Shown here: piece after piece, positions 39,906 to 44,225 of the stretch
Position numbering within the stretch: the first letter of the stretch is position 1
How the letters are laid out: each line of letters starts with the position of its first letter
Source of the DNA: Plantactinospora endophytica
Lineage (GTDB): Bacteria > Actinomycetota > Actinomycetes > Mycobacteriales > Micromonosporaceae
Direction: 5' to 3'
DNA: 64,000 nucleotides
NCBI RefSeq assembly: GCF_016862915.1
Contig: NZ_BONW01000046.1
Coordinates: 124,001-188,000 of the forward strand
Made by a program: the position numbers and the translations under genes
Notes under the pieces: generated by a model
Databases searched by the model: none
The model's input: the letters and a program-made list of their open reading frames with translations, nothing else
Told to the model about the DNA's origin: nothing

Positions 39906-40137
39906 TCACTCTCCGATGATCCGGCGAGTCGGTGCGTCATGATCCGGGCGACATCCTCCGCAAACATGAGATGACGTACGGTTAGCCCGTAGTCACGGGA
40001 TGCTCACTCCGGGCGCGACCGGGCTGCTGCCCTCCGCCCCTCCCCCTAGCGTGACAGGTCCTTTGTGCACCCGGTCCCGGACCGGTGCGAAGGTCGCGCC
40101 GTGCACTGCTTGGAGCTGCGCCAAGTTGGGGGAACGA

Positions 40138-42861
40138 ATGCCGTCTTCCGCACGACCGTCACCGGTCAACCGTCTACTGCGGACAGGAGTCGCCGCCGCC
40201 CTGGTGGCCGCGCTCGCCGCGCCCGTCACCGGGCCGGCACCCGCCGCCGCGGTGGTGCTGCCGACCGGTTTCCAGGAACAGATCGTCTTCACCGGCCTCA
40301 ACCAGCCGACGAACATCGAGTTCGCGCCGGACGGCCGGGTCTTCGTCGCCGAGAAGGGCGGCCGGATCAAGGTGTACGACGACCTCGCCGACACCAGCGC
40401 CACCGTCTTCGCCGACCTCTCCGCGAACGTGCACAACCAGCACGACCGGGGACTGCTCGGGCTCGCCCTGCACCCGGACTTCCCCACCCAGCCGTACGTC
40501 TACGTGCTCTACACGTACGACGCGCCGCCGGGGCAGACGGCGCCGTACTGGAACGACAACTGCGCGTCGGTCGGCGGTACCAACGGTGGGCGGTGCATCG
40601 TCACCGGTCGGCTCTCCCGGCTGACCGCCGCCGGCAACACGACGACCGGCGCCGAAGAGGTGCTCGTCCAGGACTGGTGCCAGCAGTACGCCAGCCACGC
40701 CACCGGCGACCTGCGGTTCGGTGCCGACGGCATGCTCTACGCCACCGCCGGCGACGGGGCCAGCTACGACCTCGTCGACTACGGCCAGCTCGGCAACCCG
40801 CCGAACCCGTGCGCCGACCCGCCCGGCGGCACCATGAGCCCGCCGGCTGCCGAGGGCGGCGCGCTGCGTTCCCAGGACTCCCGGACCACCGCCGACCCGA
40901 CCAGCCTGGACGGTACGGTGATCCGGCTCGACCCGCTGACCGGCGCCGCCGCCCCCGGCAACCCGTCGGCGGCCAGTGCCGACCCGAACACCCGGCGGAT
41001 CGTCGCGCAGGGCCTGCGCAACCCGTTCCGGTTCACCATCCGGCCCGGCACCAGCGAAGTCTGGACGGGTGACGTGGGCTGGAACCGCTGGGAGGAGGTC
41101 AACCGGGTGGTCGACCCGACCGCCGGGGTGGCCAACTTCGGCTGGCCGTGCTTCGAGGGCACCGGCCGGCAGAGCGGGTACGACAGCGCCAACCTCGACA
41201 TGTGCGAGAGCCTGTACAGCGGCGCCGGGCAGACCGCACCGTTCTACACGTACGACCACGCGGCCCGGGTGGTGGCCGGGGAGGCGTGCCCGACCGGCAG
41301 TTCCTCGGTCTCCGGCGCCGCCTTCTATCCGGCCGCCGGTGGCAGCTACCCGGCCGAGTACGCGGGTGCGCTCTTCTTCTCCGACTACTCCCGGGACTGC
41401 ATCTGGGCGATGCTGCCCGCCGCGCCCGGTGGGCTGCCGGAGGCGACCAGTCGGCGTACCTTCGGCAGCGCGGCGGCGAACCCGGTCGACCTGGCCATGG
41501 GACCCGGTGGCGACCTCTACTACGTCGACCACGCCGGTTCGGTACGCCGAATCCGCTACTTCCCCGGCAACCAGCCGCCGGTCGCGTCGATCGCCGCCTC
41601 GCCGACCTCCGGCACCGCACCGCTGACGGTGAACTTCGACGGCACCGGTTCCTTCGACGCGGACCCGGCCGACGCGGGCCGGCTGCGCTACGAGTGGGAC
41701 TTCACCAACGACGGCACCGTCGACGCCACCACGGCGACGGCGTCGTACACCTATCCGGCCGGCGGCCCCTTCACCGCCCGGCTGACCGTCTACGACACGC
41801 TGAACGCCGCCGGCACCCAGACGGTGCCGATCCAGACCGGCAACAGCATGCCGACGGCGGTGATCGACACCCCGACCGGCGACTTCACCTGGGCGGTGAA
41901 CGACCCGATCAGCTTCACCGGACACGCCACCGACCCCGACCAGGGCACCCTGCCGGCCAGCTCGCTGCACTGGCGGATGCTGCTGCACCACTGCTACACG
42001 CTGGACAACTGCCACACCCACACGCTCCAGGACTTCGCCGGAGCCAGCGGCAGCATGTTCGGGCCGGACCACGAGTATCCGTCCTATCTGGAGTTGGTGC
42101 TGACCGCCACGGACAGCGGCGGGCTGTCGCACAGCACCAGCGTGCGGCTCGACCCGAAGACCGTGGACCTGACGTTCACCTCCAGCCCGCCCGGCCTGCA
42201 ACTGGTCTTCGGGTCGACGGCCCAGGCGGCGCCGTTCACGCGTACCGTCATCCAGGGGTCGAGCAACACCGTCAGTGCGGTCACCCCGCAGACCCTCGGC
42301 AACGTGCCGTACGTCTTCGGCTCCTGGTCCGACGGTGGCGCCCAGACCCACGTACTCACCGCCCCGACCAGCCCGACCAGCTACACCGCGACGTACAACC
42401 CGCAGTCCGGAAGCGTCCGGCTGCCGCAGTCGGCGTGGACCGTCGCCGGGGTCGACAGCCAGGAGACGCTGCTGGTGAACGGCCGGGGCAACAACGTCCG
42501 GGACGGCAACACGTCGTCGATCTGGCACACCCAGCGGCTGCTCTCCAACCCGGCGCACCCGCACTGGATCGACCTCGACCTGGGCAGTGCCCGGACCGTC
42601 AACCGGCTGTACTACCTGCCCCGACAGGGCTCCAACACCGGCGGGCGGATCACCGGCTACGAGGTGTACGTCTCCGACAGCCGGAGCAGCTGGGGCACTG
42701 CGGTGGCCACCGGCACCTTCCCGAACAGTGCGGCGGAACAGACGGTGACGATCCCGCCGACGAGCGGCCGGTACCTCCGGCTCCGCGCCCTCGGCGAGGT
42801 CGGCGGCAACCGCTGGACCTCGGTGGCGGAACTCAACGTCGGCGTGGTGCCGACCGGCTGA
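40138..42861 (+). CDS. secreted PQQ-type sugar dehydrogenase with PKD and F5/8C-like modules
   Basis: 907 residues. Signal peptide (about 1-35, ending PAPAAA), then a six-bladed propeller of the glucose/sorbosone dehydrogenase family (QPTNIEFAPDGRVFVAEKGGRIKVYD, HDRGLLGLALHPDFP, GLRNPFRFTIRPGTSEVWTGDVG). A PKD-like domain follows (about 480-570, SPTSGTAPLTVNFDGTGS), then a cadherin-like or carbohydrate-binding stretch, and a C-terminal F5/8-type discoidin module (about 765-905). It probably oxidises sugars outside the cell while bound to polymer. ATG 40138 has TTGGGGGAA upstream. Confidence 0.9.
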   Translation: MPSSARPSPVNRLLRTGVAAALVAALAAPVTGPAPAAAVVLPTGFQEQIVFTGLNQPTNIEFAPDGRVFVAEKGGRIKVYDDLADTSATVFADLSANVHNQHDRGLLGLALHPDFPTQPYVYVLYTYDAPPGQTAPYWNDNCASVGGTNGGRCIVTGRLSRLTAAGNTTTGAEEVLVQDWCQQYASHATGDLRFGADGMLYATAGDGASYDLVDYGQLGNPPNPCADPPGGTMSPPAAEGGALRSQDSRTTADPTSLDGTVIRLDPLTGAAAPGNPSAASADPNTRRIVAQGLRNPFRFTIRPGTSEVWTGDVGWNRWEEVNRVVDPTAGVANFGWPCFEGTGRQSGYDSANLDMCESLYSGAGQTAPFYTYDHAARVVAGEACPTGSSSVSGAAFYPAAGGSYPAEYAGALFFSDYSRDCIWAMLPAAPGGLPEATSRRTFGSAAANPVDLAMGPGGDLYYVDHAGSVRRIRYFPGNQPPVASIAASPTSGTAPLTVNFDGTGSFDADPADAGRLRYEWDFTNDGTVDATTATASYTYPAGGPFTARLTVYDTLNAAGTQTVPIQTGNSMPTAVIDTPTGDFTWAVNDPISFTGHATDPDQGTLPASSLHWRMLLHHCYTLDNCHTHTLQDFAGASGSMFGPDHEYPSYLELVLTATDSGGLSHSTSVRLDPKTVDLTFTSSPPGLQLVFGSTAQAAPFTRTVIQGSSNTVSAVTPQTLGNVPYVFGSWSDGGAQTHVLTAPTSPTSYTATYNPQSGSVRLPQSAWTVAGVDSQETLLVNGRGNNVRDGNTSSIWHTQRLLSNPAHPHWIDLDLGSARTVNRLYYLPRQGSNTGGRITGYEVYVSDSRSSWGTAVATGTFPNSAAEQTVTIPPTSGRYLRLRALGEVGGNRWTSVAELNVGVVPTG

Positions 42862-42913: not shown

Positions 42914-42961
42914 ACCGGGCGGGAGTCCCCCGCGCCTGTGCGCGGTGGGTTCCCGCCCGGT
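42914..42961 (+). terminator. terminator after the sugar dehydrogenase gene
   Basis: 11-bp outer stem ACCGGGCGGGA / TCCCGCCCGGT and an inner CCGCGC/GCGCGG stem. It separates this gene from the trpS leader in the 317-bp gap 42862-43178. Confidence 0.8.
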
Positions 42962-43033
42962 CGGCCGCTTCGGCACCGCGCCCGGTCACCCCCGGAATCC
43001 CGTCGCCGGTCCTGCTACCGTGGAGGTGTGCGG

Positions 43034-43063
43034 ATGACCTCGAACGGTTGGTGGCTGCCCTGA
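43034..43063 (+). CDS. trpS leader peptide
   Basis: Nine-codon ORF MTSNGWWLP with two adjacent Trp codons (43049-43054), GGAGG seven bases upstream. A TACCGT -10 (43016-43021) instead suggests a leaderless start at GTG 43028 in the same frame (VRMTSNGWWLP); either way the Trp codons are read. They sit at the left edge of stem 1 of the attenuator, exactly where a ribosome stalled for Trp-tRNA would mask it. Confidence 0.85.
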   Translation: MTSNGWWLP

Positions 43064-43127
43064 CGGGCGGCCAGCGCATCCACGCACCCGACAGACAGCC
43101 AACGGCCGCCCCTCCGGGCGGCCGTTT
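43053..43127 (+). promoter_or_regulatory. ribosome-mediated trp attenuator of trpS
   Basis: Four segments: 1, GGCTGCCC (43053-43060); 2, GGGCGGCC (43065-43072); 3, GGCCGCCC (43104-43111); 4, GGGCGGCC (43116-43123). Pairs 1:2, 2:3 and 3:4 all form eight-base stems and exclude one another. 3:4 ends in TTT (43125-43127) and is the terminator. When Trp-tRNA is scarce, a ribosome on the Trp codons covers 1, so 2:3 forms and trpS is transcribed. Confidence 0.85.
43103..43127 (+). terminator. attenuator terminator
   Basis: Nine-bp stem CGGCCGCCC / GGGCGGCCG with loop CTCC and then TTT; the conditional terminator of the trpS leader. Confidence 0.85.
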
Positions 43128-43178
43128 CGCATGTGCTCACCCCGGAGGCGTCGGCCCATCCGGTAAGGAGTACCCGTC

Positions 43179-44225
43179 ATGGCCCCGATCACCCCGGTAA
43201 CCACCACCACCGCCGGCACCACCGCGCCCACCCCCGGCCGCGCCTCGGTACGCCGGATCACCGGCCTCAAGCCAACCGGCCACCTGCACCTGGGCAACCT
43301 GGTCGGCGCGATCCGGCCCACCGTCGCCGGCCAGTACCGGACGGAGACGATCGTCTTCCTGGCCGACCTGCACGCGCTCACCGTGACCCACCAGCCGGCG
43401 CAGATCCGCACGCTCACCCTGGAACAGGCCACCGTACTGCTCGCCGCCGGGCTCGACCCGGACCGGGCGCTGCTCTACGTGCAGTCCCAGGTACCGCAGC
43501 ACACCGAACTGCACTACCTGTTGGAGTGCGCCACCGGCTACGGCGAGGCACAGCGGATGATCCAGTTCCGGGAGAAGTCGGCGCGGCACCGGCAGGTCCG
43601 GCTGAGCCTGCTCAGTTATCCGGTCCTGATGGCGGCCGACATCCTGCTGCACGACGTGCACGAGGTGCCGGTCGGCGACGACCAGAGCCAGCACCTGGAA
43701 CTCACCCGGACCGTGGCGAACCGGTTCAACGCCCGGTACGGCGACACCTTCACCGTGCCCCGGGCGGTGCACCCGACGGTGTCGTCCCGGGTGATGGACC
43801 TGGCCGACCCGACCGCCAAGATGGGCAAGACCAGCAGCAGCGAGGCGGGGACGATCCTGCTGCTCGATCCGCCCGAGGTGATCCGCCGCAAGGTGCTGCG
43901 CGCGGTCACCGACCCGGACCGCACCGTCGGGTACGACCCGCAGCGCCGTCCCGGCGTGGCGAACCTGTTGGAGATCCTGGCCGCCTGCCTGGGCGGCTCA
44001 CCGACCGACCTGGCCGCCGACTACGGGTCGTACGCCCAGCTCAAGAAGGCGGTCGCCGAGGCGGTCGAGTCGATGCTCCGGCCGATCCGGCTCCGCTACA
44101 CCGAACTGTCCCGCGACCCGGGTTACGTCCGGCGGGTACTCGCCGACGGTGCCGACCGGGCCCGGGACAACGCCGCCGACACGGTCCACCGAGCAAAACG
44201 CGCCCTCGGCCTACTGAGCCATTGA
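43179..44225 (+). CDS. trpS: tryptophanyl-tRNA synthetase
   Basis: 348-residue class I synthetase. The HIGH-like motif is PTGHLHLGN (32-40), and KMSKS is KMGKTSS (214-220); FLADLHALT, MAADILLHD and VPVGDDQSQHLELTR are typical TrpRS blocks. The N-terminal 24 residues are Thr/Pro-rich and not conserved. ATG with AAGGAG upstream. In Streptomyces coelicolor an auxiliary, indolmycin-resistant TrpRS is controlled by ribosome-mediated attenuation; the leader here suggests this is the same kind of auxiliary copy, but a second trpS cannot be checked in this window. Confidence 0.95.
   Translation: MAPITPVTTTTAGTTAPTPGRASVRRITGLKPTGHLHLGNLVGAIRPTVAGQYRTETIVFLADLHALTVTHQPAQIRTLTLEQATVLLAAGLDPDRALLYVQSQVPQHTELHYLLECATGYGEAQRMIQFREKSARHRQVRLSLLSYPVLMAADILLHDVHEVPVGDDQSQHLELTRTVANRFNARYGDTFTVPRAVHPTVSSRVMDLADPTAKMGKTSSSEAGTILLLDPPEVIRRKVLRAVTDPDRTVGYDPQRRPGVANLLEILAACLGGSPTDLAADYGSYAQLKKAVAEAVESMLRPIRLRYTELSRDPGYVRRVLADGADRARDNAADTVHRAKRALGLLSH

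Follow-up and report, generated by a model that had tools for sequence, protein, structure and literature searches.

A probable leaderless trp-type attenuator upstream of auxiliary tryptophanyl-tRNA synthetase genes in Plantactinospora and other Actinomycetes

Background

What is the role of a short reading frame with two adjacent Trp codons, followed by a row of segments that can pair with one another in alternative ways, in front of a tryptophanyl-tRNA synthetase (TrpRS) gene? The question is raised by a locus of the soil actinomycete Plantactinospora endophytica (contig NZ_BONW01000046.1), found in a stretch of 64,000 nucleotides that was analysed as a whole and is called here the window. 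A sequence-only reading of this DNA had proposed a complete trp-type attenuator before the TrpRS gene. The anatomy, conservation and pairings described below support that proposal, and from them we infer regulation by the charge of Trp-tRNA. It is highly probable that this gene, which encodes an auxiliary and probably indolmycin-resistant TrpRS, is under the control of a leaderless transcription attenuator that works through the ribosome, as the trp attenuator of E. coli does. The anatomy of the region, its conservation and covariation, the position of the sensing codons and the modelled folds were computed here.

Anatomy of the region upstream of trpS

Sequence analysis and folding place in 43016-43130, on the + strand like all features of this region, a -10-like box, a short leader ORF with tandem Trp codons, and four segments that pair as 1:2, 2:3 and 3:4. 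The box, TACCGT (43016-43021), lies 6 nt upstream of the probable leaderless start of an 11-codon ORF that opens with GTG (43028-43063, MRMTSNGWWLP and a stop). Its tandem TGG TGG codons occupy 43049-43054, and the TGA stop (43061-43063) stands beside segment 2. Segment 1, GGCTGCCC (43053-43060), is followed by segment 2, GGGCGGCC (43065-43072), whose partner may be either segment 1 or segment 3, and then by segment 3, CGGCCGCCC (43103-43111), and segment 4, GGGCGGCCG (43116-43124), which together make the terminator hairpin. A putative Shine-Dalgarno sequence AAGGAG (43165-43170) is found about 40 nt past segment 4, and the auxiliary trpS, coding for a TrpRS of 348 amino acids, occupies 43179-44225. 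The product of the upstream gene (40000-42861) has 953 amino acids and includes a region resembling glucose/sorbosone dehydrogenases, recognized by matches below curated cut-offs.

The eight-base stems of the sequence-only reading are found in 1:2 (with one G.U pair) and in 2:3, but the core of 3:4 has 9 bp, extended to 11 bp by two A-U pairs that flank it. The same reading called this terminator T-tailed, which is generous: the hairpin is there and is strong, but the U-tract that directly follows it is just TTT (43125-43127, reading TTTCGC), so that the efficiency of intrinsic termination is uncertain. The stretch 43028-43135 has a minimum free energy of -59.5 kcal/mol (z -4.34), a value equalled by none of 200 dinucleotide shuffles, and the corresponding fold combines 1:2 and 3:4 with a helix absent from the earlier list of features. 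This closing helix, P0, joins GTGCGGATG at the very 5' end of the leader (43028-43036, start codon included) to CATCCACGC in the linker between segments 2 and 3 (43077-43085), with one C.A mismatch among nine pairs. Rfam gave no match at gathering threshold anywhere in the 64-kb window, and a known riboswitch or T-box was rejected on that ground; a search of 42950-43200 with E up to 10 returned nine sub-gathering matches, with no Trp leader among them. Rfam includes an enterobacterial Trp leader family.

The leader was earlier given as the nine codons MTSNGWWLP from an in-frame ATG (43034), with a leaderless start at GTG 43028 mentioned as a possibility. The tandem Trp codons are as described, but comparison favours the longer frame. 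The start codon that relatives have at the position of GTG 43028 is found 5-8 nt, mostly 6-7 nt, 3' of a TAnnnT box. The spacing between the box and the first start codon, ATG or GTG, hardly varies, which makes GTG 43028 preferable to ATG 43034. On this evidence, the leader is most likely the leaderless 11-codon MRMTSNGWWLP, and an RNA starting at GTG 43028 would have no 5' UTR. Excerpts of a study of S. lividans report that the Trp leaders before trpS and trpE of that organism are leaderless by RNA-seq (PMC8079986).

The auxiliary tryptophanyl-tRNA synthetase

The product of the window trpS scores 297 bits against TIGR00233 (cut-off 177) and is 76-88% identical to its counterparts in six other genomes of the genus; it is 90% identical (best segment) to a protein of P. 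mayteni and 83% identical to one of P. alkalitolerans, genomes that probably are in part the same as those of the genus set. A second trpS, for which the sequence-only reading advised a search, does exist: the single other match in the genome, on another contig and 47% identical, is the housekeeping gene. Both kinds are present in all seven genomes of the genus. In a family sample of 150 genomes, trpS is matched at 1e-30 in every genome, and a locus of the auxiliary kind, as delimited by a gap in scores between 358 and 301 bits, is present in 73. A tree of 161 proteins (quick method, midpoint root) sets 106 auxiliary enzymes opposite 44 housekeeping ones across a branch with SH-aLRT 99, with 11 ungrouped rows falling on either side of that branch.

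The two kinds differ at a position occupied in the window protein by Lys31, within the motif GLKPTG. All 44 housekeeping enzymes have Gln here; of the 106 auxiliary ones, 68 have Lys, 28 have Thr, seven have Gln, one has Ala and two have a gap. We take Lys31 to be the counterpart of Lys9 in S. coelicolor TrpRS1, where, as Kitabatake reportedly found in 2002, Lys at position 9 gives indolmycin resistance, sensitive enzymes having Gln. TrpRS1 is stated to be indolmycin-resistant in excerpts of another source (PMC9437257). Together, this resistance and Lys31 make it likely that the window TrpRS is insensitive to indolmycin. The enzyme is probably a spare, to be induced upon failure of the main TrpRS or shortage of Trp. 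With Gln in seven auxiliary enzymes and Thr in 28, the group need not have resistance as its common purpose. The KMSKS motif reads KMGKT in 40 and KMGKS in 30 of the 106 auxiliary proteins.

Conservation of the leader

Genomes of the same genus and family provided 106 distinct auxiliary trpS genes (53-100% identity, tblastn) and 44 distinct housekeeping genes; of 76 loci below 300 bits, 32 (Clostridia and others) were excluded from the housekeeping controls. An automatic rule asked for a TAnnnT box, a spacing of 5-8 nt, and a start codon opening an ORF of 8-24 codons with Trp within the last eight, tandem or not. It was satisfied upstream of 90/106 auxiliary genes, 0/44 housekeeping genes (scored by automatic rules, not by eye, and in one case, L184, over 160 nt of upstream sequence only) and 10/1060 dinucleotide-shuffled upstream sequences. 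The 16 auxiliary genes missed comprise one cut by a contig end (L155), one with a box and too long an ORF (L005), and 14 without TAnnnT at that distance. Once 15 leader starts were assigned by hand or by a fallback rule, a leader and a terminator hairpin were seen in 105/106 auxiliary genes (hairpin of L045 searched within a limited range); the exception is the truncated L155, which was dropped. The leader of L005 (2809-2919) has no stop beside segment 2 and extends to 21 codons, so that a ribosome would run over that segment.

Tandem Trp codons are common to most, not all, of these leaders. Automatic scoring found tandem-Trp short ORFs before 87/106 auxiliary genes (two of these ORFs, in L045 and L048, being wrong) against 0/44 housekeeping genes; a looser count of any short ORF with at least two Trp codons gave 91/106 against 4/44. 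Nineteen auxiliary genes were at first scored as having no tandem-Trp leader, in a pass that had picked wrong ORFs in L006 and L045; on closer inspection 18 of these carry the device in a form with one Trp codon, the other being L155, and tandem Trp was abandoned as a criterion. The 105 accepted leaders include 85 with tandem and 20 with single Trp. In the latter (L095-L099, L104, L151-L154, L156 and others), the second Trp is mostly replaced by Arg (CGG or CGC), with the bases of the stem kept.

Counting from the stop codon in 103 leaders (the 105 except L005 and L048), codon -4 is Trp in 102 and Arg in one; codon -3 is Trp in 85, Arg in 17 and Gln in one, and most other residues vary. The 8 nt past the hairpin hold from 0 to 6 U, most often 3, in 104 auxiliary members. 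Among the genera in named records of the trpS relatives are Micromonospora, Actinoplanes, Catellatospora, Asanoa, Actinocatenispora, Actinomadura, Nonomuraea, Streptosporangium, Pseudonocardia, Kutzneria, Actinospica, Nocardioides and Streptomyces.

Covariation and the closing helix

Pairing was assessed in A1, a MAFFT alignment not fitted to structure, which contains 104 of the 105 sequences (102 distinct); L028 was omitted, as the end of its hairpin looked misassigned. The terminated structure is paired in 83.8% of cells, against 80.5% in shuffled alignments and 41-50% when the structure is slid, and 15 pairs changed on both sides, against 9.1 in shuffles, none of 500 being as good; kinship among the sequences inflates such shuffle statistics. 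The 2:3 helix is paired in 94.6% of cells. In 11 sequences, one of its pairs has changed from G-C to C-G, with a covariation score of 0.071 as opposed to 0.041 (0/500), but the counts of double-change pairs (1) and further pair types (5) in 2:3 show no excess over the shuffles in A1; its stem core is too conserved for more. On the whole, the leaders of orthologues, whose comparison was proposed at the outset, keep both a Trp codon and the ability to pair; covariation is strongest in 3:4 and P0 and limited in 2:3.

In the MAFFT columns, Streptomyces rows are out of register at P0, which makes the per-pair counts for this helix too low, and an alignment-free swap test was added for that reason. 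The first 21 nt of each leader were paired with the linker between segments 2 and 3 in 104 of the 105 sequences (L048 out, L028 in), with kinship uncorrected. Mean pairing energy was -13.5 kcal/mol with the own linker and -11.0 kcal/mol with linkers swapped between species, and none of 2000 permutations did as well. With shuffled linkers the mean was -8.7 kcal/mol, the own linker being better in 101/104. The outcome was similar in both subsets: 1/2000 for the 14 Streptomyces-like rows and 0/2000 for the other 90. In most non-Streptomyces rows, P0 begins within nucleotides 1 to 3, and in the window at nucleotide 1, whereas in Streptomyces-like rows it begins at about nucleotide 6-9.

Modelled ribosome positions

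The folding model masks the footprint of a ribosome and cuts the transcript before segment 4 when 2:3 is scored, counting it at 6 bp or more; it is thermodynamic, not kinetic. In 104 members (the 105 except L005, with L028 included), a stall at the first Trp codon gave 2:3 in 101/104, as opposed to 8/104 when the ribosome was absent. In the full transcript, 3:4 formed in 104/104 both with a ribosome at the stop codon and without a ribosome, and in the latter case 1:2 formed in 101/104 and P0 in 96/104. The three failures of the stall model are L006, L028 and L048, that of L028 perhaps because its terminator was misassigned.

The A site was also moved along 103 leaders with 11, 13 or 16 nt masked downstream. 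At codon -4, 2:3 formed in 102, 102 and 96 leaders, respectively; at codon -3, in 101, 95 and 1; with the ribosome at the stop codon, in none under any of the three masks. The drop to 1/103 with the 16-nt mask makes the role of the second Trp codon dependent on the footprint that is assumed. With the 13-nt mask, stalls at each codon from -7 to -3 gave 2:3 in 80 to 102 of 103. In this model, a Trp stall would free segment 2 and a ribosome at the stop codon would cover it; all three masks gave this behaviour at the first Trp codon, and two of the three gave it at the second.

Proposed mechanism and alternatives

The attenuator could work as follows. Transcription would begin at or beside GTG 43028, and a ribosome would load on the 5' end of the RNA. 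With ample Trp-tRNA, it would reach the TGA beside segment 2 and block 2:3, letting 3:4 form, and the RNA would end near 43127. With Trp-tRNA scarce, as in Trp starvation or when a drug acts on the housekeeping TrpRS, the ribosome would stall at the Trp codons and cover segment 1; 2:3 would then form, and trpS would be transcribed. With no ribosome, P0 would close the 5' end, 1:2 and 3:4 would form, and trpS would stay off.

Other explanations account for parts of the evidence. The hairpin might be the terminator of the upstream gene (40000-42861) or a generic structure of the 5' UTR, with the short ORF there by chance. That gene does precede the region on the same strand, GC-rich hairpins are common, and the tail is plausible for a terminator, though a weak one; but a box with a Trp leader recurs before most auxiliary genes and before neither housekeeping genes nor, with few exceptions, shuffled sequences, the position of Trp is fixed, and the almost universal pairing of 2:3 would be needless for a plain terminator. 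We regard this explanation as very improbable, and the combination of a chance ORF with an upstream-gene terminator was rejected on conservation, 2:3 pairing and the housekeeping control.

It is also conceivable that the leader senses Trp-tRNA by stalling, as proposed above, and that the output is Rho-dependent termination or translational coupling. Many members have few U past the hairpin (two or fewer in 8 nt in 27/104), but long U-tracts are often missing from actinobacterial terminators. A terminator-type hairpin is present in all 105 members with enough sequence, and the ribosome-binding site of trpS, about 40 nt past segment 4, lies outside the stems, all of which makes such an output unlikely; on its side are the S. 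lividans trpS leader, reported in excerpts to have no U-rich stretch (PMC8079986), and the discussion of Rho for leader peptides of cys operons in parts of another paper (PMC1262725). Finally, the signal itself might be a drug or some other cause of stalling, and not the charge of Trp-tRNA, given that any stall from codon -7 to -3 could act in the model. Yet Trp at -4 is the sole residue fixed in that stretch, the other positions being variable, and the genes controlled encode TrpRS or chorismate-using TrpE-like enzymes in 48 of the 49 class-hit loci described below, so that we give this explanation next to no credence. Attenuation by a ribosome that stalls for want of Trp-tRNA is the reading retained here.

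Relation to known systems

Attenuation of an auxiliary trpS is already known in Streptomyces. Vecchione and Sello reportedly described, in 2010, an attenuator that controls trpRS1, an auxiliary gene of Streptomyces coelicolor; the sequence-only reading had named this precedent. An attenuator of trpS2 was predicted in S. avermitilis by Seliverstov et al. 2005 (PMC1262725, seen in excerpt). Compared by description, both resemble the window in having a Trp-coding leader and an attenuator before an auxiliary trpS, and the window differs in genus, family and leader, MRMTSNGWWLP. The Streptomyces genes in our sample group with the window trpS and bear the same device. In S. lividans TK24, excerpts of the RNA-seq study (PMC8079986) describe two leaderless Trp leaders with hairpins, trpL1 before trpE and trpL2 before trpS. 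The leader trpL2, MMTRTCTQLWRAA, shows the W-R pattern with one Trp that recurs in many of the one-Trp leaders found here, in contrast to the two Trp codons of the window; trpL1, MFAHSTRNWWWTAHPAAH, is near-identical to leaders found before chorismate-binding genes. A closing helix is unmentioned in those excerpts. The earlier remark that the device had not been described for this group is true of the genus, in the literature found, and has to be restricted to it, because trpS attenuators of Streptomyces are on record. A search of titles and abstract openings, which covered few subscription papers, found no further description of trpS attenuators outside Streptomyces. New are the wider range, the corrected start codon and the conserved closing helix P0.

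The E. coli trp leader, trpL, has tandem Trp codons and the classical segments 1-4, and controls the trp operon, whereas the window device controls trpS. Translation of E. coli trpL starts from a ribosome-binding site within a 5' UTR, and eight T follow its hairpin; the window leader is probably leaderless, and its hairpin is followed by TTT only. In trpL, GGGUAUC just 5' of the AUG has a partner, GAUACCC, in the stretch that separates segments 2 and 3 (-14.4 kcal/mol, 13/500 shuffles as good), and this pairing, which curbs leader translation, is an analogue of P0. By this analogy, P0 is best read as a leaderless counterpart of the trpL pairing ahead of the AUG.

The conservation data indicate that spare TrpRS genes of many further genera of Actinomycetes are under the control known from Streptomyces. 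The device may thus help to spot auxiliary TrpRS genes, some of them possibly drug-insensitive, and its natural one-Trp and two-Trp variants could be used to measure the number of sensing codons that such a switch needs. P0 and the probable leaderless start raise the question of how a leaderless attenuator times its ribosome.

Further Trp attenuators in Actinomycetes

A covariance model, R1, found a second element in the same genome, at 1501-1600 of locus L199 (G000:C15:2324-2423, - strand). Its leader is MLARLNSWWPAIPAADLRA, with a box 6 nt before the GTG, and it lies upstream of a chorismate-binding gene that in NCBIfam has sub-cut-off matches only, to anthranilate and aminodeoxychorismate synthases and their kin. 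Another match in this genome (L200, E 0.6), with no TrpRS or TrpE-like gene downstream, was taken as chance. Across the class, R1 has a match at E 0.01 or better in 84/246 genomes. A 149-genome sample of the phylum gave seven matches at 0.001, three from Actinomycetes and four others at 35-37 bits.

Examination of 49 class-hit loci by tblastn assigned 22 to auxiliary-type TrpRS, 19 to relatives of the L199 gene, four to TrpE-type enzymes and three to a divergent TrpRS, with none of these in one (L248). Of 29 further elements, 27 were analysed (20 L199-type, four TrpE-type, two divergent TrpRS and one auxiliary TrpRS), leaving out L248, which has no Trp gene downstream, and L243. A -10-like box is present in 24/27. 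P0 pairing in these 27 elements averages -13.0 kcal/mol, against -10.5 kcal/mol with swapped linkers (0/2000), a result biased towards P0 because R1, by which the elements were found, itself contains P0.

A unifying view, to which we give slightly less than even credence, is that the Trp attenuators of Actinomycetes are one old leaderless module. In this module, the hairpin that blocks antitermination would be closed by P0 with the 5' end of the leader (start codon included in most non-Streptomyces members), and P0 would make the readout one-shot. The module would stand before auxiliary trpS, divergent TrpRS and TrpE-like genes, with about one-fifth of its trpS members having a single Trp. If P0 does act in one-shot fashion, the start would be buried after the first ribosome leaves, or whenever a ribosome fails to load in time.

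The elements that R1 found upstream of the divergent type of TrpRS are those of L227, L242 and L243. Two of them have leaders with three Trp codons, MLASWWWLP in L227 and MLNSWWWLP in L242. This control may thus have been acquired by a second lineage of TrpRS as well.
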